Assembly (NCBI RefSeq): GCF_025685625.1 | Contig: NZ_JAGSYI010000002.1 | Coordinates: 62,001 to 126,000, forward strand | DNA length: 64,000 bases | Direction: 5' to 3' | From: Acidicapsa acidisoli | GTDB lineage: Bacteria > Acidobacteriota > Terriglobia > Terriglobales > Acidobacteriaceae | Shown here: piece after piece, positions 20,901-49,142 of the stretch | Layout of the letters: each line of letters begins with the position of its first letter | Numbering within the stretch: position 1 is the first letter of the stretch | Position numbers and translations under genes: made by a program | Notes under the pieces: model-generated | What the model was told of the DNA's origin: nothing | The model's database searches: none | The model's input: only the letters and a program-made list of their open reading frames with translations

Positions 20901-21000
20901 GTAGTTTGAAAAAAAGGCAAACCCTCAGGGGCTAAAGCCCCCGGATATTGCAAGATTCAATGTACGGGCTGAAGCCCGTACCCTTCAAACTGATCCACTA
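20901..21000. repeat. Family A repeat, full copy 1
   Basis: Two palindromes: AGGGGCT-aa-AGCCCCC (20927-20942) and TACGGGCT-ga-AGCCCGTA (20963-20980), then CCCTTCAAACTGATCCACTA. It ends 29 bases before the dcd start, so it probably lies in that gene's leader or promoter region. Confidence 0.85.
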
Positions 21001-27543: not shown

Positions 27544-27658
27544 GTCAATTTGAAAAGGGCCAACCCTCAGGGGGTTAAAGCACGGTTTGAACTGATCGCC
27601 TTGTGCGCCGGGGTTAAAACCCCGGCCTACCAGCCCGTACCCTTCAAACTGACCCACC
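27544..27658. repeat. Family A repeat, full copy 2 (diverged)
   Basis: CAACCCTCAGGGGGTTAAAG, then an extra unit CGCCGGGGTTAAAACCCCGG and CCCGTACCCTTCAAACTGAC CCACC. It begins at the cupin stop, and its right end runs into the minus-strand EAL gene, giving that gene its last codons and TGA stop. Confidence 0.75.
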
Positions 27659-29224
27659 AGGTGAGTCCTCGTCCACATGCTCGAGGCAACCGTACCAGCA
27701 TAGGATCTTTCCGTCTTCGTCGAAACGGGCTGCTCCCCGTGCTCGAAGTCTTTTCCACTCCCCGCCCGGACGTCGAACGCGATATTCCAGATCGATGGGG
27801 TGGCCTGTTTGAAGCGAGGCGCGCATTATTTCCAGAGTCGGTTCGAGATCATCGGGATGGAGTGCGTCGAGCCAGCCGAACCCTCTCCACTGGTCGTCGG
27901 TCATTCCTGTGATGTCCAACCAACGCTGGCTGACGTCCAAGGCGCGGCCTTCAGCATCGATAATCCAGGGAATTTGTGGAAGAAGCTCCAGCATGTGGCG
28001 GAAGTGCTCTTCGGTTTCGCGGCGCGCTTTCTCGGATTGTCTGAGTTCGGTAACGTCTACGAGGGCGACCGAGACGCCAACCACTTCTCTTGCTTCGTCG
28101 CGCGCCGGTTCGTAGGACATGAGTATCGTTCGTTCTCCATTTGCGCCGGAAGCTGGGCGGGTTATCTCGACGCCGGGAATTGCCTCGCCTTTGAGCGCGC
28201 GCCGGATAAAGGGTTCAATGTGCGGGAAGATCTCTGGAATGATCTCTGCGACTGTCTTGCCGAGATGCTCTTCCATTGCAATTCCGTTCATGTCGGCGAG
28301 TCTCCGGTTGACGCTCAGGTGCCGAAGGTTGCAATCCAGGAATGCGAGACCAACGGGAGCGCCGTCGTAGATAGCCTGAAGTTGAGCGAGACGCTGGGTG
28401 GGCAGGGCTTCCAAACTACTCAGAGAGACACGGCCTTTCGCATCGGTCGAGAAATGCGGAGTCAGCGCATGCCGTGGGACCGAGACGGTGGTAGCAAGCT
28501 CCTCGACTGGCCTGGGACGTCCAAAGAACCAGCCCTGCCCGAGTTCGCAGCCCATCCAGAGAAGCATGTCGGCTTGCTCCTGAGTCTCGACGCCTTCGGC
28601 GACCGTGGTTAGCCCGAGTCCCTGGCCAAGACCTACCACGGCAGCGACGATCTTCCGGCTCTCTCGTTTTTGGGTCATGGAACTTACAAAACTGCGGTCC
28701 ACCTTCAGTTCGTCGAAGGGCAGGGACTGCAGATGCAAGAGACTGGAAGATCCCGTTCCAAAATCATCCAGCGCAAGCTTGCAGCCCATCGACTTGTATT
28801 CGTGCGTTACCGACCGCGCGTGCTCCATGTCATCCGCTAAAGCGTTCTCGGTAATTTCGATGATGAGCCGGTCCAGGGAAAAGCCCGCGGAGTGCGCCGC
28901 GCATTGGATCTGTCCTGGCAGAGTGAGACTGCGTAACTGACTGGGAGACATGTTGACTGCGAGCGTGAGCGAAGGGGGCAGTGTCGCGGCGGCGGATAAT
29001 GCCTTGCGCAGCAATTCTGCGGTTAACGCGTCAATCCAGCCGTCTCTTTCCGCTAAGGGGATAAATGCGTCTGGTTGAACCCATCCCCTCTGGGGATGCT
29101 TCCAGCGCGCCAGTATTTCGAAGCCTTGCAACTGGCCGGTGCGAAGGATGACGAGCGGCTGGAAATAGGGGTGAAACTCGCCATTCTCGATTGCCAGGAG
29201 CATTTCCTCGCGGTCGCTAGACAT
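27644..29224 (-). CDS. EAL-PAS-PAS protein, c-di-GMP phosphodiesterase candidate, 526 aa
   Basis: An EAL domain occupies about residues 5-245 and is followed by two PAS domains (about 280-400 and 410-515). EAL residues look intact: E36 in GFEILARWKHP, N in AVNMSPSQL, E in IIEITENAL, DDFGTG, K in ELKVDRSFV, E in AEGVETQEQA and Q in GQGWFFGRP. It should therefore be able to hydrolyse c-di-GMP. No GGDEF domain and no membrane segment. The order is unusual, since sensor domains usually come before EAL. The second PAS (MLELLPQIPWIIDAEGRAL, then WLDALHPDD) is a PAS_3-like type. The C-terminal residues GGSV and the stop derive from a family A repeat. Confidence 0.93.
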   Translation of the reverse strand: MSSDREEMLLAIENGEFHPYFQPLVILRTGQLQGFEILARWKHPQRGWVQPDAFIPLAERDGWIDALTAELLRKALSAAATLPPSLTLAVNMSPSQLRSLTLPGQIQCAAHSAGFSLDRLIIEITENALADDMEHARSVTHEYKSMGCKLALDDFGTGSSSLLHLQSLPFDELKVDRSFVSSMTQKRESRKIVAAVVGLGQGLGLTTVAEGVETQEQADMLLWMGCELGQGWFFGRPRPVEELATTVSVPRHALTPHFSTDAKGRVSLSSLEALPTQRLAQLQAIYDGAPVGLAFLDCNLRHLSVNRRLADMNGIAMEEHLGKTVAEIIPEIFPHIEPFIRRALKGEAIPGVEITRPASGANGERTILMSYEPARDEAREVVGVSVALVDVTELRQSEKARRETEEHFRHMLELLPQIPWIIDAEGRALDVSQRWLDITGMTDDQWRGFGWLDALHPDDLEPTLEIMRASLQTGHPIDLEYRVRRPGGEWKRLRARGAARFDEDGKILCWYGCLEHVDEDSPGGSV

Positions 29225-29319: not shown

Positions 29320-30666
29320 CTAGCACCGGAGGATCTTAGGGCTGGTTATGCCTTTGGTGGCGTTGCGGGTATCGATGACTAACTTCGACTGCTCGACGAT
29401 TTCTTTGTAGTTGTAGGTGGAATGGTCGGTGACGATGACTACCGCGTCGTAACTGCCAAGGTTATCGAGCGGGGTGTTGATCATGTTGAGGGCGTAGTGG
29501 CGGCCATGGCCTACGGTGGGGAAATATGGATCGTTATAGGCTACGCTGGCTCCGCGATGGCGTAGGAGTTCAAGGATGGTCAGGGAGGGTGATTCGCGGA
29601 GGTCGTCTACGTCGCGTTTGTAGGCTAATCCTAAAACCAGGATATTTGAGCCTTTGATGGATTTGCTGTGTTCGTTGAGGCCGGCTGCGATCTGTTCCAA
29701 GACGAAGTAGGGCATGGCGGTGTTGACTTCGCCGGCCAGTTCGATGAAGCGGGTGTGGAAGTCGAACTGCTTGGCTTTCCACGAGAGATAGAACGGGTCG
29801 ATGGGAATGCAATGGCCGCCGAGGCCGGGGCCGGGATAGAAAGGCTGAAAACCGAAGGGTTTGGTCTTGGCGGCGTCGATGACTTCGTGGATGTCGATGT
29901 CCATCTTCATGCAGAGTTGCTTGAGTTCGTTGACGAGGGCGATGTTGACGCAGCGGTAGATGTTTTCGAGGAGCTTGGTCATCTCGGCTACGGAGGTTGA
30001 GCTGACCGGGACTACCTTGCGGAAGATGCTGCCGTACATGGCGGAGGCTAATTCGAGGGCGGCGGGGCCGCAGCCGCCGACGACTTTGGGGATATCGTGA
30101 CGGGCTACGGTGTCGTTGCCTGGGTCTTCGCGCTCTGGCGAGAAGGCAACATGGATGCCGGGTTCATCAGCGACGCGGGCGACTTTGAGGCCGGATGGAT
30201 TTCCCTTTTCGAGGCGCGGGACGACCAGTTCTTCGGTGGTGCCGGGGTAGGTTGTGCTTTCGAGGACGATGAGCTGGCCCTCGTTGACGTATGGGGCGAT
30301 GGATTCGACGGTTTCGCGGACGTAGCGCAGGTCTGGCTCGTGGTAGTCGTTGAGCGGAGTGGGAACGCAGATGATGACCGCGTCCATCTGGGCGACTTCG
30401 GAGTAGTCGGCGGTGGCGTGGAAGCCCTTTTTCTGCGCCTGCTGGATGGAGTCGGGCGGGATGCGGACGATGTAGGAGCCACCGCTGTTGAGGGTGGCGA
30501 CTTTGGCCGGCTCGATGTCGAAGCCGGTGACGCGGAAGCCTTCGTTGCTGAAGAGCAGAGTGAGGGGCAGGCCGACGTAGCCCATGCCAACGATACCGAT
30601 GCGGGCTTCGCGGGTTTCCATTTTGAGCTTGAGGGCTTGGAGTCTGGTGGGGGCGGCAGTGGTCAT
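29320..30666 (-). CDS. Nucleotide-sugar dehydrogenase (UDP-GlcNAc 6-dehydrogenase type), 448 aa
   Basis: NAD-dependent oxidation of a UDP-sugar C6 alcohol to a uronic acid, cytoplasmic. Rossmann start IGIVGMGYVGLPLTLLFSNE, PTPLNDYHEPDL, the catalytic Cys in GPGLGGHCIPIDPFYLSWK, and a C-terminal domain with LGLAYKRDVDDLRESPSL. The motifs resemble WbpA/TviB (UDP-GlcNAc or UDP-GalNAc) rather than UDP-glucose dehydrogenase, but the exact substrate is inferred. It is divergent from the epimerase gene 250 bases away, and the two could make UDP-GlcNAcA/GalNAcA for the polymer. Confidence 0.92.
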   Translation of the reverse strand: MTTAAPTRLQALKLKMETREARIGIVGMGYVGLPLTLLFSNEGFRVTGFDIEPAKVATLNSGGSYIVRIPPDSIQQAQKKGFHATADYSEVAQMDAVIICVPTPLNDYHEPDLRYVRETVESIAPYVNEGQLIVLESTTYPGTTEELVVPRLEKGNPSGLKVARVADEPGIHVAFSPEREDPGNDTVARHDIPKVVGGCGPAALELASAMYGSIFRKVVPVSSTSVAEMTKLLENIYRCVNIALVNELKQLCMKMDIDIHEVIDAAKTKPFGFQPFYPGPGLGGHCIPIDPFYLSWKAKQFDFHTRFIELAGEVNTAMPYFVLEQIAAGLNEHSKSIKGSNILVLGLAYKRDVDDLRESPSLTILELLRHRGASVAYNDPYFPTVGHGRHYALNMINTPLDNLGSYDAVVIVTDHSTYNYKEIVEQSKLVIDTRNATKGITSPKILRC

Positions 30667-30912
30667 GTCTTCTTGATTGTAAAGCGGTGCTTAGGGCTCG
30701 CGGGCTTTAGCGGGGCTCTCGCGGCGCGAGTATTGTGCGGATTCCCGAAGCGGGCAGAATGCAGTTTGGTTCCTGGCTGGCCCAGAGGCTAAAGGCCAGT
30801 TTGAGTTGATCGGCTTGGCAGTCCGTGCCCTTCGCACGGACCATGAGGCGATACCCGGATGCGCCGGATTCCTGGGTTGTATGCTGAGGTTTGTGTGTTG
30901 GAGGATGTTGGA

Positions 30913-31860
30913 GTGGCGAAGTATCTGGTGACTGGAGCGGCGGGGTTTATCGGGCGGTCGATTGCGGCGGCGTTGTTGGAGCGGGGCGAGGAGGTGCGCG
31001 GGGTCGATAATTTTGCCACGGGCAAGCGCGAGAATCTTGTAGGCCTGGAGAGGATGGAGTTTGTCCAGGGGGATCTGGCTGATCTGGACGTTTGCCGTGC
31101 GGTTTGCGCGGGCGTGGAGGTTGTCTTTCATGAGGCGGCGTTGCCTTCCGTGCCCCGGTCGGTGATGGACCCGATTGCTTCGAATGTGGCCTGCGTGGAT
31201 GCTACGGTGAATCTGCTTTGGGCTGCGAAGGAGGCCGGGGTGCGCAGGGTGGTGTATGCGGCTTCGTCGTCGGCGTATGGGGATACGCCGACGCTGCCGA
31301 AGCATGAGGAGATGCTGCCGAATCCGATCTCTCCGTATGCTGTGGCGAAGTTGACGGGCGAGCACTATATGCGTTCGTTTGCCAGGGTGTATGGGATGGA
31401 GACGGTTTCGCTGCGGTACTTCAATGTGTTTGGGCCGTATCAAGATCCAACTTCGCAGTATTCGGGAGTGCTCGCGGTGTTTTGCCGGAAGATGCTGGCG
31501 GGGGAAGAACCTACGATTTATGGCGACGGGGAGACTAGCCGGGATTTCACTTTCATTCAGAACACGGTGGAGGCGAATCTGCTGGCGGCGGATGCTCCTG
31601 CGGAGCGGGTATCGGGGCGGGTGATGAATGTGGCGACCGGGGTTCGGATTACATTGAACCAGGTTGCGGAGGTGCTGCGGGAAATCACCGGATATGCGGG
31701 AGCTGTGGCTTATGCCGCGGAGCGTGCGGGTGACATTCGGCATTCTCTGGCGGACATTTCGCTGGCTCAGGAACTGCTTGGATATCGGCCGAGTGTGGAC
31801 TTCCGCGAAGGGCTGGTGCGGACGGTGGAGTGGTATCGAAAGACAGGGAATAGGGATTAG
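30913..31860 (+). CDS. NAD-dependent epimerase, UDP-GlcNAc 4-epimerase-like, 315 aa
   Basis: Extended short-chain dehydrogenase. KYLVTGAAGFIGRSIAAALL is the NAD-binding GxxGxxG; the active Ser is in YAASSSAYGD and the YxxxK pair in YAVAKLTGEHY. RYFNVFGPYQDPTSQYSGVL and GDGETSRDFTFI are typical of WbpP/GalE-type 4-epimerases. GTG at 30913 has GGAGG 8 bases upstream and sets the Rossmann strand at the N-terminus. It probably interconverts UDP-GlcNAc/UDP-GalNAc (or their uronic acids). It heads the plus-strand exopolysaccharide genes. Confidence 0.9.
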   Translation: MAKYLVTGAAGFIGRSIAAALLERGEEVRGVDNFATGKRENLVGLERMEFVQGDLADLDVCRAVCAGVEVVFHEAALPSVPRSVMDPIASNVACVDATVNLLWAAKEAGVRRVVYAASSSAYGDTPTLPKHEEMLPNPISPYAVAKLTGEHYMRSFARVYGMETVSLRYFNVFGPYQDPTSQYSGVLAVFCRKMLAGEEPTIYGDGETSRDFTFIQNTVEANLLAADAPAERVSGRVMNVATGVRITLNQVAEVLREITGYAGAVAYAAERAGDIRHSLADISLAQELLGYRPSVDFREGLVRTVEWYRKTGNRD

Positions 31861-32192
31861 GGATCGAGTTGAGTCCGCATCAGTTTTGTGCCATCTGTGT
31901 TTCCTGGGATGTTGTTTAAGAAGAGTTTCAGAGACTTTGAGATTATGTCGTTGACGGATTGAGCGGAATGCTTGATGCTGCTCAAGAGCAGTGAGTAAGT
32001 TTGAAGAAAAGCCGACCCTCAGGGGCTAAAGCCCCCTGATATAGGAGGATTTAATGTACGGGCTGAAGCCCGTACCCTTCGAACTGACCCACGACGTGCT
32101 CAAGGCACCCCCTTGTAATACTTGTTTTCTTTTTCCCAATCTGTGCGTACTTACCCTGCTGGGTCGATTTTCCAGCTTCAGGATATTGGTGC
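31861..32192. other. Intergenic region with a full family A repeat
   Basis: Between the epimerase and the Wzz-Wza fusion. The repeat lies at 31995-32092; the last 100 bases should carry the promoter or leader of the export gene. No gene seen. Confidence 0.5.
31995..32092. repeat. Family A repeat, full copy 3
   Basis: CCGACCCTCAGGGGCTAAAG CCCCC ... AATGTACGGGCTGAAGCCCG TACCCTTCGAACTGACCCAC. Both palindromes are intact. Confidence 0.85.
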
Positions 32193-34733
32193 GTGGCGGA
32201 TTCTACATTACCGGATGTTGAAGGGAAGTCTCATTCAGCCTCGCAGAGGGGGCAGGGCGAGTTATCTTCCTATTCGATTCTTGAATTAATTAGCCTGTGT
32301 CGGCGACGGCGGCGTTTCCTGTTGGGAACGATCGTCGGATTGTTGCTGTTATGCCTGACTTATTGCGTGATAGCTTCCAATCAATATGAAGCTTCCGCGC
32401 GGGTTGCTTTGCGGATGCAGCCGACGTCGTCACTGACGGTGGATACGGCCGAAACGATTGCTCCTGCTTCGATCCTGAGTACTCCGCTCCAGCTTGAAAC
32501 ACTGGCCAATGTGCTGCGCAGCGAGCGGTTGACCTGGCGTGTGATCTGCGGGCTTAAGTTGTACGAATCGGCGGCTTTCAGCCGTGATTTCAAGCAGAGA
32601 TTTCCAGAATTTGATCCGGAGAAGCCGACGCCGGAAGCGCAGGGGTATCTGCTGGAAACCTTTGGAAAGCGGCTTCATGTTCGCTCGTTGCCGAGGACGC
32701 TTCTGCTTGAGATTCGGTTTCGGAGCAAAGATCCGGCGCTGGCGGCAAAGGTGGTGAATGCGCTGATCGGGGAGTTTCGTGCTCAGGAAGGCGAAAGCCG
32801 CGTGGATGCGACGCAGGAGGCTTCGAAGTGGCTGCAAGGGCAACTTAAGACCCTGACGGCGCAGGTGGAAGCGAAGGAACGGCAGCTTGCGGAATTTGAA
32901 CGCCGGAACGGATTTATGACCACCGAGGAGACTGTGCCGGGAGGGCAGCCGGTAGAGTCGCTGCGGGCGTCCGCGGTGCGTGAGGTAGACGAAGCGGAGC
33001 GCATGTGGGCGGCGGCAAATGGAGACCGGATTTTGCACGAGGCGCTTTATATGCAGGCCCAACAGGGCGATCCAGAGCAGATTTTGGCGGCGAATCCTGA
33101 GTTGCAGGCGGAGATGGGAGCGGGTGGAGCGGCTTTGGCGCAGCAGTTGCACGGGAAGTTGAGCGATGTGAATGTGGAACTGGCTCAACTTGAGGCGGAG
33201 CATGGGCCGAAGTTTCCGCGGGTGGTGGAGTTGCGGCGTGCTCAGCAGGAGGTTCAGGGCCAGATACAGGCTGAGGACGAGAACCTGGTGAAGGCTTTTG
33301 AGCAGAGCTGGAAAACGGCCGAGGCGCGGGAGCAGTTGTTGCGGAAGGAGCTGGACGCGCAGACGGAAGCGGGTTTGCGGCAGAATGACGCGACGATTGA
33401 GTACTCGGTGCTGCATGACGAGGTGCTGTCGGGCAGGGAGCTTTGTACGCGGCTGGCGCGCCGGATGGAAGAGGCGGAGTTGTCGGCGGGAGTGCGGGGT
33501 TCCAGCATCACGGTGGTGGATTATGCGCGGGTTCCATTCAAGCCTGTGACTCCGGACCCGGTGCTTTATCTGGCGATTACGCTGTTTTCGGGGGTGTGGG
33601 TGGCGTTGGGCGGGGCGCTTTTGCTGGATGCCTTGCGGCCTTCGGCGGGGCAGGTCACAAGTCAGGTTAAGGGCGTTGTTGTTTGTCTGATTTTTCTGAT
33701 GGCAGGGGTTGCGGCGGCCTATGGGCAGGCTCCTATTCCGAATACGCAGGGATTGCCGAGCGGTGTGGTCAAGCTGCCGGAGGATCAACCGGCGGGTTTG
33801 AGGCCGAATGCGAAGGAGGCGCCTCCGGTGTGGAATTCCACTGCTCCAGCGACGGGAGTTGCGGAGGTGTTGGATCGTCCGGCCGGGACTGCGATGGCGT
33901 TGCCTATTGCGGTGGGGGATTTTCTGGATGTGAGCGAGTTTCATATGCCGGAGTTTCGTTCGGCGGTGCGCGTGGCGAGTGACGGGACGGTGCTGCTGCC
34001 GCTGGTGGGGCAGGTGAAGCTGGCCGGAATGATGGAGCGGCAGGCTTCCGAGGCGATCGATAAGGCGCTGGTGGATGGGGGAATGCTGCTGCATCCGCAG
34101 GCTTCGGTGCTGGTGACGAATGCGGCTGGGCAGGACGTCAGCGTGATGGGAGAGGTGGCGCGGCCCGGAGTGTATTCGTATACGGCGCATCATCGGCTGC
34201 TGGATTTGATCGCGGCGGCGAGCGGGCTTTCGGCGAATGCGGGGCGGCTGGTAAGCGTGTTTCATCGGGAAGATGCGCATACCGGCCATCCGGTGATTTT
34301 GGATGGGGGCGGTATAGACGCCAAGGGCGATCACAATCCGGAGCTAGCGCCGGGAGACACGGTGATGGTAAGCCGCGCGGGACTGGTTTATGTGATCGGA
34401 GATGTGGTCCGTCCAGGGGGATTTGCCGTCGATCCGGCGCAGGGACTTACGGTCGTGCAGGCGCTTTCGCTGGCCTGGGGAGCGTCGGCCAATGCTGCGG
34501 CTTCCAAGGCGATTCTGATTCGGGATCAGACTGGCGGACGGACTTTGACGACGCTGAACCTGCGGCGCATGATTCGCGGGCAGGACCCGGATCAGCCGGT
34601 TCGAGATCGGGATATTCTCTTCGTTCCGGATAGCACTGCCAGGGATTTGATGAACAAGGGGCTTGAGTCCGCGATCCAGTCGGCTATCGGAGTTTCGATT
34701 TATGCGGGGCTGGTGTATTCGCAGAGGTTTTAA
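32193..34733 (+). CDS. Wzz-type chain-length/PCP protein fused to Wza-type export protein, 846 aa
   Basis: Two envelope proteins in one reading frame. Residues 1-480 are a polysaccharide co-polymerase: TM1 about 42-62, a periplasmic domain with coiled coils (about 205-260 and 310-420) and TM2 about 454-476 (LYLAITLFSGVWVALGGALL). Residues 491-512 then form a typical signal peptide (VKGVVVCLIFLMAGVAAAYG, QA). From 513 the protein is an OPX/Wza-like export protein: a Poly_export domain (about 567-645), then SLBB domains (GEVARPGVYSYTAHHRLLDL; GDVVRPGGFAVDPAQGLTVV) and a C-terminal hydrophobic helix. No tyrosine-kinase domain and no lipobox Cys. No in-frame start codon precedes the internal signal, so this is a fusion as sequenced. 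The GTG start at 32193 has no strong ribosome binding site. Confidence 0.88.
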   Translation: MADSTLPDVEGKSHSASQRGQGELSSYSILELISLCRRRRRFLLGTIVGLLLLCLTYCVIASNQYEASARVALRMQPTSSLTVDTAETIAPASILSTPLQLETLANVLRSERLTWRVICGLKLYESAAFSRDFKQRFPEFDPEKPTPEAQGYLLETFGKRLHVRSLPRTLLLEIRFRSKDPALAAKVVNALIGEFRAQEGESRVDATQEASKWLQGQLKTLTAQVEAKERQLAEFERRNGFMTTEETVPGGQPVESLRASAVREVDEAERMWAAANGDRILHEALYMQAQQGDPEQILAANPELQAEMGAGGAALAQQLHGKLSDVNVELAQLEAEHGPKFPRVVELRRAQQEVQGQIQAEDENLVKAFEQSWKTAEAREQLLRKELDAQTEAGLRQNDATIEYSVLHDEVLSGRELCTRLARRMEEAELSAGVRGSSITVVDYARVPFKPVTPDPVLYLAITLFSGVWVALGGALLLDALRPSAGQVTSQVKGVVVCLIFLMAGVAAAYGQAPIPNTQGLPSGVVKLPEDQPAGLRPNAKEAPPVWNSTAPATGVAEVLDRPAGTAMALPIAVGDFLDVSEFHMPEFRSAVRVASDGTVLLPLVGQVKLAGMMERQASEAIDKALVDGGMLLHPQASVLVTNAAGQDVSVMGEVARPGVYSYTAHHRLLDLIAAASGLSANAGRLVSVFHREDAHTGHPVILDGGGIDAKGDHNPELAPGDTVMVSRAGLVYVIGDVVRPGGFAVDPAQGLTVVQALSLAWGASANAAASKAILIRDQTGGRTLTTLNLRRMIRGQDPDQPVRDRDILFVPDSTARDLMNKGLESAIQSAIGVSIYAGLVYSQRF

Positions 34734-34766: not shown

Positions 34767-36032
34767 GTGCTTTGCACGAGCTGGCACATGGCTTTTGGAG
34801 GTCTGGTGAGGCGGCTGACGGTTGCGTTGCTGATGCTGTATGCATTTGCGGTGCCGTGGGAGTATTCGCTGGATCTTGGCGAGCCATTTGGGAATGCGGC
34901 TCGCATTCTTGGTATTTTGCTGCTGGTTACGGTGGCGCCTCTTGTGTTGATGATGCGAGGCGCGCGCAGACCGGGAGTTGTGCAATGGCTGGTGCTAGCG
35001 CTTTATCTATATTTTGTTTGCAGCTATTTCTGGACTGTAGAGCAAGATGCCACTATGGACAAGATTCGGGCCTACTTCCAGGTGATGATGATTGTCTGGC
35101 TTGTCTGGGAGGTTGCAGAGGCTCCCGAGGACTTGCGGGGGCTCTTTCGCGCCTTTGTGGCTGGTTGCTGGGTGTTGGCGATTTTGACCTTCCTCAACTT
35201 TGCGTCTGCCAGTTCAGCGGTGGAGCAATTGGCGGGACAGGTGCGGTTTGTGGCGGAGGGGCAGGACCCGAATGATGTGGCGCGGTTCCTGGATCTGGGA
35301 TTTCCGCTGGCTGCGCTTTTGTTTGCGACGGAAAAGCAATGGCTGACGAGGTTTCTGGCCATCGGATATATTCCGGCGGGATTGCTGGCGGTGTTGTTGA
35401 CGGCGTCCCGAGGAGGGTTTTCGGGGGCTCTTGCGGCCTTGCTGGGGTCTGCGATTTTGCTGGTGATGTGGCGTCCGAGGGCGTCGTCGGTCGTATTCGT
35501 GGGGCTTGCCGTGACGGTCGTTGCGATCTTCCTGTTTGTGCCGGCCGGTTCGTTGGACAGGCTGGCGACGATTCCGGAAGAGGTCGGCGGCGGAGACCTC
35601 AACGACCGGCTGAATATCTGGGATGCCGGATGGCATGCGTTCACTCGGTCGCCGTGGTGGGGTTACGGGGCGGGGACGTTTACGACGGCTGCGGGTCTTG
35701 CGTCTGGCGATACTGCGCACAACACGGTGATGGCGGTACTGGTAACTGGGGGACTGGCAGGAACGGCGATCTTTGCGGGAATTCTAGCTGGTGTCGCGCG
35801 GGCCGTGTCTCGAACGGGCGGGTTGCTGCGAGTGGCTTTGGGTACGGGGATGGTGGTGTGGCTGATTACCTCCATGGTTGGGTCGGTGGAGGAGAATCGT
35901 GCCACCTGGTTGCTGTTTGCCATGGTGACCTTGGCTGGGCGGCTGGCGGAAGAGCGGCGCGGGGCGATGATGGAGCTGTTTTCCGGAGAAGGCGGCACGG
36001 AAGTGAAGATGCTCGTGTACGCCGGCAGGTAG
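34767..36032 (+). CDS. O-antigen ligase/polymerase-like membrane protein, 421 aa
   Basis: Wzy/WaaL-type protein with about ten to twelve hydrophobic segments (LYAFAVPWEYSLDLGE near the start, WLVLALYLYFVCSYFW, TVVAIFLFVPAG). The larger loop has SRGGFSGALAALLG and NDRLNIWDAGWHAFTRSPWW, then GYGAGTFTTAA and HNTVMAVLVTGGL, the usual Wzy_C motif. It probably polymerises lipid-linked repeat units in the periplasm; ligase activity is an alternative. GTG at 34767 or ATG at 34788 may be the start. It follows the export fusion by 33 bases. Confidence 0.85.
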   Translation: MLCTSWHMAFGGLVRRLTVALLMLYAFAVPWEYSLDLGEPFGNAARILGILLLVTVAPLVLMMRGARRPGVVQWLVLALYLYFVCSYFWTVEQDATMDKIRAYFQVMMIVWLVWEVAEAPEDLRGLFRAFVAGCWVLAILTFLNFASASSAVEQLAGQVRFVAEGQDPNDVARFLDLGFPLAALLFATEKQWLTRFLAIGYIPAGLLAVLLTASRGGFSGALAALLGSAILLVMWRPRASSVVFVGLAVTVVAIFLFVPAGSLDRLATIPEEVGGGDLNDRLNIWDAGWHAFTRSPWWGYGAGTFTTAAGLASGDTAHNTVMAVLVTGGLAGTAIFAGILAGVARAVSRTGGLLRVALGTGMVVWLITSMVGSVEENRATWLLFAMVTLAGRLAEERRGAMMELFSGEGGTEVKMLVYAGR

Positions 36033-36060: not shown

Positions 36061-36163
36061 AGTGGGTCAATATTAAGAAAGGCCAACCCTCAGGGGCTAA
36101 AGCCCCCAATATTGCAGGACTTAATGTACGGGCTGAAGCCCGTACCCTTCAAACTGACCTATT
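36061..36163. repeat. Family A repeat, full copy 4
   Basis: GGCCAACCCTCAGGGGCTAA AGCCCCC ... AATGTACGGGCTGAAGCCCG TACCCTTCAAACTGACC. It fills most of the gap before the flippase gene. An open frame that crosses it (36055-36669) is spurious. Confidence 0.85.
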
Positions 36164-36178
36164 ACGTCCTATGGCAAG

Positions 36179-37552
36179 ATGACTCAATCTCCCGTGATAT
36201 TGCCGAGTATCAATCGCCGTATCTTTCGTGCAGCGTTGATCGTCACGTTTGCCGGTGTGTTCGTGAAATTGGTTGCGACTGCGAAGGAATTTGTGGTGGC
36301 CGGTGCGTTTGGGCGCAGCGATGCGATGGATGCGTTCCTGATCGCGTATCTGGTGCCCGGGCTGCTGGTGAATCTGTTCTCGGAGTCGATGAACCAGGCG
36401 CTGATTCCGACGCTGGTGCGGGTACGGGAGACGGAGGGCCGGGCGAAGGCGCAGGAGCTGCTTTCCAGCGCGATGGGTTGGACGTGCCTTCTGCTGGCGG
36501 GCGGGTCAGTTGTGATGGGAGCGACGGCGCGGCTGTTCTTTCCTTTGGTGGTACCGCACTTCTCCGCGGGCAAGATGTTGCTTACGGAGGAGTTGTTCTA
36601 CGGGTTGCTGCCGGTCGTCCTGATTGCTGGAATTACCCAGAACTGCGCGGCTGTGCTGAATACCTTTGAGCGGTTCGCGTTGCCGGCTCTGGCTCCTGTG
36701 GTCTGGCCGCTGGCGATCATTCTGGGTGCGTGGTTTCTTGCGCCGCAGTTGGGGATCTGGGCGATGGTCTATTCGAATGTGGCCGGAGCGCTGGTGAATG
36801 CGGTGCTGGTGATTTGGATGATGCAGACGCATGGGTATCGCTTTGAACTTCACTGGTTTGGGGGCTGGAATCGAAGAACCGACGCGATGCGGGAGGTTGC
36901 TGGACAGTATGGGCCGATTCTGCTGAGCGGGCTGGTAGCGTCGAGCGGATTGCTGGTGGATCAGGGAATGGCGGCGATGCTGCCTTCCGGGAGTGTTTCG
37001 ACGCTGGTCTATGCCAATCGTTTTGTGAGCGTAGTGCTGAATCTGCTGGCAGGCGCAATTGCAACGGCGGTGACGCCGTACTTTTCGCAGATGGTGGCGC
37101 GCCGGGACTGGACGGGCTGCCGGCATACGATCAATACGTATGTTCGGGTCACGGCGCTGGTTTCGGTTCCGGTGGCTCTGGCGATGATCTTTGGGTCGCA
37201 TCTGCTGGTGCGCCTGACCTACCAGCATGGGGCGTTTGGAGCGCAGGATACGGCGGCGGTTGCTCCGGTGCAGGCGATGTATGCGATTCAACTGCCGTTT
37301 TATATCGTCAGCCGGGTGTTCTACCGGTATCTGGTTGCGATTCGACGGACTTCGCTGATTCTGTATTGCGGGATTATCAACCTGGTGCTGGATGTGGTGT
37401 TGAACATCCTTTGCATGCGGTGGTACGGCGTGGCGGGAATCGCGCTTGCCACCTCTCTGTGGACGGTGAGCACGTTTGTGTTTCTGTGCTTCTGGACGTA
37501 TCGGCTGCTGCCTGCGGCGGATTCGCCGAATAAGGACGCGCTGACGGCATGA
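36179..37552 (+). CDS. MurJ/MviN-like lipid-linked oligosaccharide flippase, 457 aa
   Basis: Member of the MOP superfamily with about 12-14 hydrophobic segments. FAGVFVKLVATAKEFVVAGA, FGRSDAMDAFLIAYLVPG and FSESMNQALIPTLVRVRETE match the MviN/MurJ start; GSHLLVRLTYQHGAFGAQDT matches its conserved LxYQHG segment. Within this gene set it probably flips the exopolysaccharide repeat unit, as Wzx does. Lipid II flipping cannot be excluded. Its stop overlaps the deacetylase start by 4 bases (ATGA). Confidence 0.88.
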   Translation: MTQSPVILPSINRRIFRAALIVTFAGVFVKLVATAKEFVVAGAFGRSDAMDAFLIAYLVPGLLVNLFSESMNQALIPTLVRVRETEGRAKAQELLSSAMGWTCLLLAGGSVVMGATARLFFPLVVPHFSAGKMLLTEELFYGLLPVVLIAGITQNCAAVLNTFERFALPALAPVVWPLAIILGAWFLAPQLGIWAMVYSNVAGALVNAVLVIWMMQTHGYRFELHWFGGWNRRTDAMREVAGQYGPILLSGLVASSGLLVDQGMAAMLPSGSVSTLVYANRFVSVVLNLLAGAIATAVTPYFSQMVARRDWTGCRHTINTYVRVTALVSVPVALAMIFGSHLLVRLTYQHGAFGAQDTAAVAPVQAMYAIQLPFYIVSRVFYRYLVAIRRTSLILYCGIINLVLDVVLNILCMRWYGVAGIALATSLWTVSTFVFLCFWTYRLLPAADSPNKDALTA

Positions 37553-38316
37553 GGAAATCTCCGGCGAAGGCGCAGTATTTGCTGCGGTTTGACGATTTGT
37601 GTCCGACGATGGATCGGGCGCGATGGGCACGGATGGCGGCGCTGGTGGCTCGATTTGGAATTCAGCCGATATTGGCGGTTGTGCCGGATAATCGTGATCC
37701 CGAGCTTGAGCACGACGCTGCCGATGAAGGGTTTTGGGAGCAGATGCGCGCGCTGCAGAATTCAGGAGCGACGATCGGGCTGCATGGTTACCGGCATGTT
37801 TGCGCGGCCGGTGGACGGAGTTTGATTCCGCTGCATCGCCGGACGGAGTTTGCGGGGGTGGCGCGGGAGTTGCAGCGGGAGTGGATCGGGCGTGGGCTGA
37901 CGATTCTCCGAGCGAATGGATTGCATCCGCGGATCTGGGTTGCGCCGCGACATGGGTTCGACCGCCGGACGCTCAGAGCTTTGCGCGCGGAAGGAATTGG
38001 GCTGGTTTCGGACGGATTTGCAATGGGACCGTTTCGGAGCGAGGGGGTGGTTTGGGTTCCGCAGCAGATATGGAGTCCGGTCGAGAAGTCTTCGGGACTA
38101 TGGACGATCTGTGTGCATGCGAATTCGGCGACCGATGAGACGGTTGGGGCATTGGAGGATTTTCTTGAGCGGCACTCTTTTCAATTTACTTCTGTGGATC
38201 GGGTGCTGGCAGAATGGCCGGTTTCCGGGCGCTCGCTTCGGGACAGATGGTTCCATGCGCGGATGATCTGGCGTCTCCGGTTGAGGAAGTTCCGGGGGCG
38301 ATTGCGGGTTTCTTAA
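37549..38316 (+). CDS. DUF2334-type polysaccharide deacetylase, 255 aa
   Basis: Deacetylase-fold protein. YLLRFDDLCPTMDRARWARM supplies the Asp-Asp pair, and IGLHGYRHV the His-x3-His metal ligands; APRHGFDRRTLRAL carries a later conserved Arg/His. No signal peptide, so it would act on cytoplasmic lipid-linked or nucleotide-linked sugars. It is translationally coupled to the flippase gene. Its stop overlaps the convergent glycosyltransferase stop in a TTAA palindrome. The substrate is not known. Confidence 0.85.
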   Translation: MRKSPAKAQYLLRFDDLCPTMDRARWARMAALVARFGIQPILAVVPDNRDPELEHDAADEGFWEQMRALQNSGATIGLHGYRHVCAAGGRSLIPLHRRTEFAGVARELQREWIGRGLTILRANGLHPRIWVAPRHGFDRRTLRALRAEGIGLVSDGFAMGPFRSEGVVWVPQQIWSPVEKSSGLWTICVHANSATDETVGALEDFLERHSFQFTSVDRVLAEWPVSGRSLRDRWFHARMIWRLRLRKFRGRLRVS

Positions 38317-39452
38317 CGCCGTCTTCGCTGTCTTGCTTGATGGGATGGGTTCGGATTCTCTTCGAGCAGTTGGCAATAGAGGGACTCCCATTGGTCGACG
38401 ATGGCGCGAAGCGAGAAGTGCTTTTCGACGAATTCGCGGCCGTTTTCACCCATTTTCAGGCGGTGATCGAGGGGCATGGTCATGACTTGCGTCATGGCCT
38501 CGGCTAGGGCCGCGACGTCGCCGACCGGGACGACGCGGCCGGTTTCGTTTGGGCGCATGGCCTCGCGGGTGCCGTGGCCGTCTGTGGCTACGACTGGAAG
38601 GCCGGCTGCGGCGGCTTCGAGAACGGCGATCGGCAGGCCTTCCCAGAGAGAGGACAAAACGAAGGCGTCGGCTGTGGCCAGAAAGGGCTTGACGTTGCGA
38701 TGGAAGCCGGCGAACTGGACTCGATCCTCGATTCCGAGTTTGCAGGCCAGGTTGCGGAGGGTGTGCTCTTCGGGTCCGCTGCCTACGATTTGGAGCGTGG
38801 GCGCACAAGTTAAGGTTGCGAAGGCTTGCAGCAGGGTTGGATAGTCTTTTACCGGGGCCAGGCGGCCCACTGCGATCCACCGGAATGGCTCTATTCCAGA
38901 TGGGCTGTGTTGGCTGGGACGGGGCGAGACGTCTGGTTGGGATATCTCTACGCCATTGAAGAGGATGGTCACGGATTTCTCTGGCGCGATGTTTGCGACT
39001 ATAGCTGCGGATGCAACGGAGGTGCTGACGGCTGTTACGTGGTTCGTGAGCCAATGGGTGAGGCGGTAGGTGTGCTGCCTCGCTTTGCTGCCTGTGCTGC
39101 TGGTGTGAATGGTGTCCACGAGGACGCGGACGGGAGCCAGCAGGCGCGCGCAGCGGGCGAACCAGGTGGCGTGCGGCAGGTGGGTATGGACGATTTCCGG
39201 CTGGTTGCGCCGGACCCAGGCAAGATAGCGGAGCCAGCCGTGGGGGTCGATCCATGCCTTGCGCATTTGGAGGGAGAGATAGTCGACTCCGGCTGTCCGG
39301 AGTTCCTCTGCCGAGCCGGCTCCTGTACCGGACAGGGCGATGACGGTGACTTGCCAGCCGCGATTTGCGTGTTCTTTTGCGAGGAGAAACACCTGCTTCT
39401 CGGCTCCGCCGATTCGATCGATGGTTGGGACAAGCATGGCGACCCTGGTCAT
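38313..39452 (-). CDS. Family 4 (group 1) glycosyltransferase, 379 aa
   Basis: GT-B retaining glycosyltransferase. MTRVAMLVPTIDRIGGAEKQ is the N-terminal fold with the GGAE loop; WIAVGRLAPVKDYPTLLQAF starts the second half, and SLWEGLPIAVLEAAAAGLPV carries the E-x7-E motif. Probably cytoplasmic or membrane-peripheral, adding one sugar to the polymer unit. Start at 39452 (4-base overlap with the upstream glycosyltransferase); the frame continues farther upstream but that part is antisense-like. Confidence 0.92.
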   Translation of the reverse strand: MTRVAMLVPTIDRIGGAEKQVFLLAKEHANRGWQVTVIALSGTGAGSAEELRTAGVDYLSLQMRKAWIDPHGWLRYLAWVRRNQPEIVHTHLPHATWFARCARLLAPVRVLVDTIHTSSTGSKARQHTYRLTHWLTNHVTAVSTSVASAAIVANIAPEKSVTILFNGVEISQPDVSPRPSQHSPSGIEPFRWIAVGRLAPVKDYPTLLQAFATLTCAPTLQIVGSGPEEHTLRNLACKLGIEDRVQFAGFHRNVKPFLATADAFVLSSLWEGLPIAVLEAAAAGLPVVATDGHGTREAMRPNETGRVVPVGDVAALAEAMTQVMTMPLDHRLKMGENGREFVEKHFSLRAIVDQWESLYCQLLEENPNPSHQARQRRRR

Positions 39453-40564
39453 GTTTTCTTTCGCGCGGCAGCTTGTTCGATGAAGGCTGCATAGGCTGCT
39501 ATAGCTGTGTCGAGTTCGAAGGGAGCGAGGAAGGCGTGGCGGAAACGGCGCGGCGTGGCGGGAGGGTGCGCGAGCTCGGGGAGGGAGGCGACGATGGTCT
39601 CGGCCAGGGAGTTGGCGGAGATGCTGGAGGTGAGCCATGTTCCCGGGGCGTCGCGGAGCAGATCGCTTACTCCATCCGAACAGGGAGTTGCGATGATGGG
39701 CAGGCCGGCGGCGGCGGCTTCGAGCATGGCGTTGGGCATTCCTTCGTAGCGGGACGGCAGGACGAAGAGCGTGGCGCTTGCATAGTATTGAGCCGGGTTT
39801 CTGTGGCCAGCGAAGGTTACTGCGGCTTCGAGATTGAGACTCCCGGTCAACTGCCTGAGAGCTTCTTCTTCCGGACCCGCGCCGAGGATCTGGAGATGAG
39901 CTTGAGGATATCGTTGCCGGACCACGTGCCGTGCTTGGAGGAGCATGTCCAGGCCCTTTTCTTTTGAAAGGCGGCCAACCGCAAGTATGCGTGGCCAGGT
40001 ATCGGGCGGCCAGTTTCCATGGTGCGAATCGTCTTCTGTGGGATGGGCGTCTAAGTCGACGGGATTTGCCAGCACTGCCAGCTTCGTTCGTGGCAGGCAG
40101 AAGTTGATTGCGAGGTCATTTGCCATGGCTTCGGACTGGCAGATGATGGCGTCGGCGCGCCGGTAAAGGTGGCGATATGGTTGCCGTGCGAGCCATGTTC
40201 TGGCAGATGAGGAGGCGGTTGTATTCTGCCGCACCAGGATGACGGTGCGGCGCGGCAGGAGTGGCTTGAGGAGCAGCACGAGGAAGTTGAGGTGAGCCAT
40301 GCCGGAGAGAATGACGTCGGGCTGACGAGCTCGAATGAGGCGGACGAGTTGCAGCCAGGCGTGGCGGACGCGTTTGACTTCGAAGCGCGTGACTCGTATC
40401 TGCGTGGGGACTGGCCCTACTAATGACCTATCTTTCGTGAATAATATGAGGTCTATCTCGAAGCGGGCTTGGCTTAGATGGCGAGTTAGAAGATGAGTTA
40501 CCCGCTCGGCACCACCTCCGCCAAGATGCGGGATAAGGAGCATTAACTTGATGCGCGGGGTCAT
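39449..40564 (-). CDS. Family 4 (group 1) glycosyltransferase, 371 aa
   Basis: GT-B glycosyltransferase: KLMLLIPHLGGGGAERVTHL at the start, ILAVGRLSKEKGLDMLLQAR, and SRYEGMPNAMLEAAAAGLPI with the E-x7-E motif. RRADAIICQSEAMANDL is the usual linker. It heads the two-gene minus-strand unit and is translationally coupled with the next transferase. The sugar and linkage are unknown. Divergent from the third transferase gene; the shared promoter region is 40565-40723. Confidence 0.93.
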   Translation of the reverse strand: MTPRIKLMLLIPHLGGGGAERVTHLLTRHLSQARFEIDLILFTKDRSLVGPVPTQIRVTRFEVKRVRHAWLQLVRLIRARQPDVILSGMAHLNFLVLLLKPLLPRRTVILVRQNTTASSSARTWLARQPYRHLYRRADAIICQSEAMANDLAINFCLPRTKLAVLANPVDLDAHPTEDDSHHGNWPPDTWPRILAVGRLSKEKGLDMLLQARHVVRQRYPQAHLQILGAGPEEEALRQLTGSLNLEAAVTFAGHRNPAQYYASATLFVLPSRYEGMPNAMLEAAAAGLPIIATPCSDGVSDLLRDAPGTWLTSSISANSLAETIVASLPELAHPPATPRRFRHAFLAPFELDTAIAAYAAFIEQAAARKKT

Positions 40565-40723: not shown

Positions 40724-41935
40724 ATGATGGCAAGTACTTCTGACGATATTTTGGGATGTGATTCCGGCCTGGGTGTGGTCCATACTGGGGCCAGGAACGC
40801 TCCCAGGCTGGTGATGGGCGTTACGAGTGACCAGACTTGCCTGGTGCTCCGGGGACGCTTGCGCGCGCTGCGGCTGGCGGGGTTTGATGTCACGCTGATT
40901 TCCTCGCCTGGGGAGAATCTGACTCGACTTGTAATGGAGGAGGGTGTGACGGCGTGTCCGCTGCCCATGCGCCGGGGGATTGCGCCGCTTGCGGACCTGG
41001 TTTCGTTTGTCGCAATTTACCGGATTCTGCTGCGGCTGCGGCCTTCCATTACAGACTTCAGTACGCCGAAGGCGGGGTTGCTGGGGAATCTGGCGGCGTG
41101 GTGCTTGCGGGTGCCGCATCGCGTGTATACGCTGCGTGGGCTCAAACTCGAGGGTGCTCGGGGAGGGAAGAAACGGCTGTTGTTGTGGTCGGAACGCCTG
41201 GCTGCCTGGTGTTCGCATGTGGTGCTGTGCAACAGCGAAAGTTTGCGGGCTGCGGCGCTTGCGCTGAGAATCGCTCCGGCGGGGAAATTGCATTTGCTCG
41301 GAGATGGCAGCAGTAATGGTGTGGACTGTGTGCGGTTTTCGCCCGGTGCGAGCCAGGTACGGCTCAATCTGGAGATCGATGACGGGGATCTGGTTCTGGG
41401 GTTTGTGGGGCGGCTCACTGGGGACAAGGGTGTTCCGGAGCTTCTGGTGGCTTTTGAGGAGATTTTGCGCGCGGAACCGCGATGCTGGTTGCTGCTGGTG
41501 GGGTGGTTTGATCGATCAGAGGATGCGCTCGACCTGCGCTGGCCGGCGCACATTGCGGGGCATCCGCGAATCCATTGCACCGGGTTTGTTGCGGATACAG
41601 CGCCGTACTACAGGGCCATGGATTTGCTGGTATTGCCGACGCACCGGGAGGGATTTCCCAATGTTGTGCTGGAGGCTGCCGCGAGCGGGTTGGCGGTGAT
41701 TACGACGGAGTCGACCGGGGCGCGGGATGCGGTTGTGCCTGGGGTGACGGGGCTGCTGATTGAGCCGAAACGGTCGGAGGCGATTGCCGGGGCGGCGATT
41801 GAGCTTCTCAGGGATGAGGAGCGGCGGAAGCGATTTGGTGCTGCTGCGCGGGCCTGGGTACTGGATCGCTATACCAAGGATCGGGTACTGGGGCTGGCGG
41901 TGGAGTTTTATCAGCGATTGATTGAGGCGTCTTGA
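40724..41935 (+). CDS. Family 4 glycosyltransferase, 403 aa
   Basis: GT-B glycosyltransferase with a Glyco_trans_4-like N-terminus (LRGRLRALRLAGFDVTLISS, SITDFSTPKAGLLGNLAAWC, RVPHRVYTLRG) and a second half with LVLGFVGRLTGDKGVPELLV and THREGFPNVVLEAAASGLAV (E-x7-E). The layout resembles WbpY/WcaL-like and UDP-HexNAc transferases. The first 28 residues are an extra leader. Last gene of the exopolysaccharide region; a hairpin at 41941 separates it from nuoN. Confidence 0.92.
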   Translation: MMASTSDDILGCDSGLGVVHTGARNAPRLVMGVTSDQTCLVLRGRLRALRLAGFDVTLISSPGENLTRLVMEEGVTACPLPMRRGIAPLADLVSFVAIYRILLRLRPSITDFSTPKAGLLGNLAAWCLRVPHRVYTLRGLKLEGARGGKKRLLLWSERLAAWCSHVVLCNSESLRAAALALRIAPAGKLHLLGDGSSNGVDCVRFSPGASQVRLNLEIDDGDLVLGFVGRLTGDKGVPELLVAFEEILRAEPRCWLLLVGWFDRSEDALDLRWPAHIAGHPRIHCTGFVADTAPYYRAMDLLVLPTHREGFPNVVLEAAASGLAVITTESTGARDAVVPGVTGLLIEPKRSEAIAGAAIELLRDEERRKRFGAAARAWVLDRYTKDRVLGLAVEFYQRLIEAS

Positions 41936-49069: not shown

Positions 49070-49142
49070 ACTCCCTCGGGGGCTAAAGCCCTATACATTT
49101 TGCTCTTCTTGTGGCGCGGCTGAAGCCGCGCCCTTTCAAAAC
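49070..49142. repeat. Degenerate family A repeat inside the nuo operon
   Basis: CTCGGGGGCTAAAGCCC, about 22 bases, then GGCGCGGCT-ga-AGCCGCGCC (49113-49132) and CTTTCAAAACG. It sits in the 147-base nuoG-nuoH gap. Its second hairpin is strong enough to affect transcript ends or stability. Confidence 0.7.

Follow-up and report, generated by a model that had tools for sequence, protein, structure and literature searches.

The window analysed here, a 64,000-nucleotide stretch of contig NZ_JAGSYI010000002.1 from Acidicapsa acidisoli, carries what is, by its predicted gene content, a chromosomal Wzx/Wzy-type polysaccharide locus (Table 1). Within it lies a genuine, conserved fusion gene that joins a polysaccharide co-polymerase (PCP), an inner-membrane protein governing polysaccharide assembly, to its outer-envelope export protein (OPX). 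The two are normally separate proteins, a textbook pair that makes contact across the periplasm. A sugar dehydrogenase, an epimerase, the fusion, Wzy, a MurJ-like flippase, a deacetylase and glycosyltransferases form a block that is syntenic across the orthologues, and in several genomes this is flanked by lpxD/lpxL and nuoN. The polysaccharide probably contains an acidic sugar, as suggested by the TviB/TviC-like enzymes.

Two further features were observed in the window. Near the polysaccharide genes there is an EAL and PAS domain protein resembling a c-di-GMP phosphodiesterase (27644-29224, minus strand), a possible regulator. In addition, the palindrome GGGCTAAAGCCC is followed ~36-37 bases later by GGGCTGAAGCCC in three places, one of them directly upstream of the fusion gene, with sites at 20929-20977, 32023-32071, 36094-36141 and 49080-49091 (seven matches against none expected).

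Table 1. Features of the polysaccharide locus and of the fusion gene, in window positions
Feature	Position	Strand	Basis
Nucleotide-sugar 6-dehydrogenase	29320..30666	-	TIGR03026; synteny
TviC/GalE-like nucleotide-sugar epimerase	30859..31860	+	profile match; synteny
Probable ribosome-binding site (AGGA), 9 nt upstream of the fusion gene's GTG	32180..32183	+	sequence
PCP-OPX fusion gene, 846 aa, GTG start, TAA stop	32193..34733	+	frame and orthologues
Wzz domain (residues 29-118); TM1 at residues ~42-62	32277..32546	+	Pfam PF02706
GNVR domain (residues 407-477), extending into TM2 (residues ~456-480)	33411..33623	+	Pfam PF13807
TM2 codons (GGCGGGGCGCTTTTG); GGAGG with ATG/GTG/TTG start in 26/56 orthologues, TTG without GGAGG in the window	33609..33623	+	codon comparison
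Short cytoplasmic loop and internal signal peptide (residues 481-511)	33633..33725	+	alignment of 56 orthologues
Predicted signal-peptidase I site G511/Q512	33723..33728	+	(-3,-1) rule in 56/56
Proline-rich linker, ~60 aa (residues 512-571)	33726..33905	+	similar linkers in stand-alone OPX proteins
Poly_export domain (residues 572-641)	33906..34115	+	Pfam PF02563; Wza structures matched
First SLBB domain (residues 647-725)	34131..34367	+	Pfam PF22461/PF10531
Second SLBB stretch (residues ~731-800), boundary read by eye	follows first SLBB	+	Pfam PF22461/PF10531
Conserved C-terminal tail (residues 811-846, ending ...GVSIYAGLVYSQRF), candidate for the outer-membrane step	34623..34730	+	conservation
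Wzy polymerase/O-antigen ligase family protein, next gene after the fusion	34767..36032	+	Pfam PF04932; synteny
MurJ/MATE-type flippase, likely Wzx	36179..37552	+	Pfam; synteny
DUF2334 polysaccharide deacetylase-like protein	37549..38316	+	Pfam; synteny
Glycosyltransferase	38313..39638	-	synteny; profile match
Glycosyltransferase	39449..40564	-	synteny; profile match
Glycosyltransferase	40724..41935	+	synteny; profile match

Domain content of the fusion protein

The frame is continuous, and Pfam and NCBIfam place a Wzz-type half before a half with Poly_export and SLBB domains, which bears out the preliminary description of this sequence. Using Pfam and hydrophobic segments, the first half was found to have the two transmembrane (TM) helices around periplasmic coiled coils and the Wzz and GNVR motifs of a PCP; the Wzz score was 24.8 bits on the full chain (just below the cut-off) and 27.0 bits on the PCP half alone (above it), and this half gave no match to any solved structure at E 0.01. 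In the second half Poly_export and then SLBB domains scored over the Pfam cut-offs, as in OPX proteins, and structures of Wza and other OPX proteins were matched by sequence. The best family matches of the two halves in NCBIfam were EpsF (TIGR03017; residues 31-479) followed by EpsE (TIGR03028; residues 571-796), although both fell far below the equivalog cut-offs and EpsE and EpsF are encoded by separate genes. A full-length structure model predicted from two sequences had a mean pLDDT of 39 and was too poor for use.

The export half had been called a complete OPX protein, which holds for the Poly_export and SLBB domains but is otherwise only partly supported, as Pfam detected no Wza_C domain in the fusion protein. 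Class 1 OPX proteins possess an outer-membrane helix (Wza_C) and those of Class 3 are paired with a β-barrel (PMC9603273, PMC9601211). No β-barrel was recognised among the named neighbour genes at the locus, and the C-terminal tail is conserved with only weak amphipathicity.

Pfam and NCBIfam searches of the 846-residue chain found no kinase domain, and the protein does not have the cytoplasmic tyrosine kinase of a PCP-2a protein, with the internal signal ending within ~30 residues of TM2. Likewise, the window's protein has no lipobox cysteine of the type seen in the lipoprotein Wza, and its site is instead of the signal-peptidase I type; other OPX proteins with Sec/SPI signals have been described (PMC9603273). 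Domain and signal-site analysis thus upheld both absences that had been reported from the sequence. No partner kinase of the PCP-2b type was recognised at the locus, and genome-wide only two kinase-family matches scored over the cut-off, both within PCP-kinase genes elsewhere. PCP-type proteins paired with a pseudokinase have been described, and in the HfsA/HfsB model contact is made via the last C-terminal cytoplasmic residues (PMC12004946), whereas in the fusion the loop and signal occupy the place of this contact tail. A lone weaker kinase-like match was also observed at G000:C2 1878268 (L065 1462-2469, minus strand); an ExeA-like ATPase gene precedes it and a phosphoglycosyl transferase lies nearby. 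The protein has an altered Walker A motif, GIDHGNGCS, with no Lys, and is possibly a pseudokinase of another polysaccharide locus.

Distribution and origin of the fusion

Sampling 250 genomes from the family Acidobacteriaceae, we found that only 3 of 79 genera carry the fusion. Orthologues were present in 80 genomes (15/15 of the window's genus, 62/80 in a second genus and 3/3 in a third), mostly with 47-69% identity to the window's protein; one MAG record (JASHOY010000297.1, L031) seems identical to G328. In the second genus, which is that of G022, 18 of the 80 genomes have no orthologue at the threshold used, for example G179 and G258, and some of these genomes are nearly complete. Plasmid records contained no place covering 80% of the query, and the best annotated rows name two genes. 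Unfused synteny, traced via the Wzy gene, was not found outside the three genera in the genomes sampled.

It had been proposed that a stop or frameshift near 33640-33700, or homologues that all have two separate genes, would overturn the fusion. Neither was found: the window has no such lesion, the frame is open in the orthologues and these have the same fused domain order, with no intact orthologue split into two genes among those in the 80 genomes. An ordinary two-gene operon that appears fused through sequencing or assembly error is accordingly ruled out for practical purposes. This reading could draw on G286 and G320, in which breaks lie close to the junction or in the linker, but the break in G286 is an assembly gap (NN) and G320 has both a linker frameshift and an in-frame TAG elsewhere, indicating a broken or mis-assembled copy, and we rejected a natural split in each. 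Moreover, the junction is read through in the large majority of the 80 assemblies, including the single-contig genomes G247 and G266. Among the remaining imperfect copies, that of G014, in the window's genus, is in two pieces on separate contigs, that of G291 is broken further down and several are truncated by contig ends; the breaks include one frameshift near a contig end.

In trees of each half the fused proteins form one clade (support of 100/100 for both halves), and by this phylogeny the fusion is of single origin. Their closest unfused neighbours are for the most part PCP-kinase>OPX pairs (moderate support, 97/75 for the OPX half and 91/82 for the PCP half), and the source was likely an operon of this kind minus its kinase domain. 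Operons of other Acidobacteriaceae, such as those in G031, G025 and G554, share with the fusion their gene order, relatives of both halves and an OPX signal site of [A/G]↓Q, but they consist of two genes, and a kinase domain separates TM2 from the OPX. The OPX gene in several such pairs begins 14 nt inside the PCP end; overlapping genes of this type might be expected to fuse readily, and an in-frame deletion of the kinase would yield the present gene.

We also observed in G664 a frame of 1097 residues (L183 2096-5386, plus strand; G664:C1 ~126.1-129.4 kb) that contains a co-polymerase, a tyrosine kinase and an OPX; its internal signal ends in FG↓Q. Among the rows listed, this three-part frame is unique in the 62 genomes of its genus, and it lies outside the window's clade. 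Like the window's gene it is a single frame with the PCP first, the OPX last and an internal signal peptide, but unlike it the tyrosine kinase is kept, and this is a second, independent fusion.

The internal signal peptide and the fate of the long chain

The junction was analysed in an alignment of 56 orthologues, with cleavage judged by the (-3,-1) rule and hydrophobicity on a flat scale. All have TM2, a short loop (in most cases containing Arg or Lys), a variable hydrophobic stretch and a conserved [A/G/C]↓Q(A/P/G) site. Cleavage before Q satisfies the (-3,-1) rule in 56/56, with no proline from -3 to +1, although L, I or M occupies -3 in about a quarter, which is permitted but less than ideal. 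Among rival offsets, the nearest upstream reach at most 44/56, and offset +9 in the linker reaches 55/56 but lies outside a signal context. The hydrophobic core has a median length of 12 residues and its sequence varies, while the c-region is conserved. The N-terminus that cleavage would leave, QAPTPxTxGLP, is also conserved, and part of this conservation could serve purposes other than cleavage; no unusual synonymous conservation was detected around the junction.

In stand-alone OPX proteins of the family, the N-terminal signal likewise ends in [A/G/C]↓Q, and the rule with Q at +1 holds in 14/14 of these and in the internal signal of G664. The best 19-residue Hessa sum, for which a larger value is less membrane-like, was 3.2 for both the internal signal and stand-alone OPX signals, compared with -0.4 for TM2 and -1.8 for TM1. 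A P/A/T-rich linker similar to that of the fusion also follows the signal in stand-alone proteins, and we therefore rejected a linker created specially by the fusion. Because site, linker and hydrophobicity are all shared, the internal stretch is, on this comparison, the OPX's own signal peptide. This agrees with the preliminary description, which had the second half keeping its own signal, but the end assigned there, AAAYGQA, would place at +1 a proline, which signal peptidase I does not tolerate, and conservation places the site after residue 511, at AAAYG↓QAP.

The preliminary description had left open whether this signal is processed or forms a tether. Since a legal site is retained in 56/56 orthologues and the core, which resembles that of stand-alone signals, falls short of a typical third TM helix in both length and hydrophobicity, cleavage is favoured over a permanent tether. 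We consider the product to be, with fair confidence, a co-translated polyprotein that belongs to a Wzx/Wzy-type exopolysaccharide pathway and is cut by signal peptidase I. It has the form expected of such a polyprotein, namely a conserved cleavage site after an internal in-to-out signal in 56/56. The ribosome would first make a kinase-less co-polymerase, with TM1, the periplasmic coiled coils and TM2, which leads the chain back into the cytoplasm; a short loop later, the OPX signal peptide would re-open translocation and carry the export half to the periplasm, where signal peptidase I most likely cuts after G511, freeing the OPX to assemble atop the co-polymerase. Ring assembly and an equal supply of both partners are what we infer for this system. 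A comparable arrangement is the cytochrome b/c1 precursor (fbcH) of Bradyrhizobium, in which a membrane protein precedes an internal signal peptide and the periplasmic partner and the chain is cut by signal peptidase, although its proteins and function are unrelated.

In E. coli, Wza-Wzc likewise comprises an inner-membrane co-polymerase and an OPX, and the fusion's OPX half matches Wza structures by sequence; unlike the fusion, with its one frame and neither kinase nor lipobox, these are two genes, Wzc has a tyrosine kinase and Wza is a lipoprotein. Octameric Wza docked on octameric Wzc provides the structural model of an export complex (PMC12881504), making a 1:1 link geometrically conceivable. 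The hydrophobic stretch could remain uncut as a third membrane anchor, with each export subunit permanently joined to its co-polymerase subunit, and nearly all orthologues have a linker of ~60-65 residues before the Poly_export fold, as a tether might have. Stand-alone OPX linkers are similar, however, so this is not peculiar to the fusion, and the universally retained site and weak core also argue against an anchor, making this reading improbable. Were the chain uncut in at least part of the population, which we likewise think unlikely, it would be a covalent single-chain trans-envelope machine of fixed 1:1 geometry.

A candidate second start within TM2

A further pattern, noticed post hoc in data already examined, lies in the TM2 codons. 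The codon for Gly473 is GGA in 33 of the 48 orthologues with Gly there (0.69), compared with 0.18 gene-wide and at most 0.38 at the other 33 of 34 conserved Gly columns. All 26 orthologues with GGAGG have a start codon after it, either ATG/GTG/TTG at 477 or ATG at 478, compared with 11/30 of those without GGAGG (Fisher p 2e-7, uncorrected for kinship), and where ATG478 is absent Leu477 is TTG in 9/9 with GGAGG but 5/19 without. Among orthologues fetched after the pattern was spotted, a manual count gave a start in 10/10 intact copies with GGAGG and 2/8 without, and the broken G320 copy has GGAGG but no start. The SD state changes at least eight times on the orthologue tree, and the OPX gene of unfused relatives begins within the end of the PCP gene, often with 14 nt of overlap.

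All of these could reflect one gene with two starts, in which the TM2 site also yields a separate OPX with a normal N-terminal signal, and the OPX may then outnumber the co-polymerase; this can operate alongside cleavage of the long chain. We regard it as a tentative reading, somewhat against the balance of evidence. Apart from its post hoc nature, SD-like codons might act by pausing the ribosome for membrane insertion, the window's own gene (GGCGGGGCGCTTTTG) has no GGAGG, as is the case in most of its genus, and five of the 56 orthologues have no usable start codon. A conserved internal start in all orthologues was rejected, as these five have none able to give an intact signal, and with no start codon at -18 to -40 their OPX must derive from the long chain. 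Separate OPX translation is therefore plausible in part of the clade, judging by codon patterns, but cannot be the general mechanism. The earlier claim of 1:1 synthesis would accordingly hold exactly only for genes whose OPX is not also translated from a start of its own inside the frame.

In the literature searched we found no PCP-OPX fusion described, a search that did not include a 2009 review of both families, leaving priority uncertain. This kinase-less, single-gene lineage of soil Acidobacteriaceae, with its small and conserved junction, offers a natural test of a fixed 1:1 pairing of PCP and OPX, and bears on whether kinase-driven assembly cycles are dispensable and on how an inner-membrane protein can carry the signal peptide of its partner.
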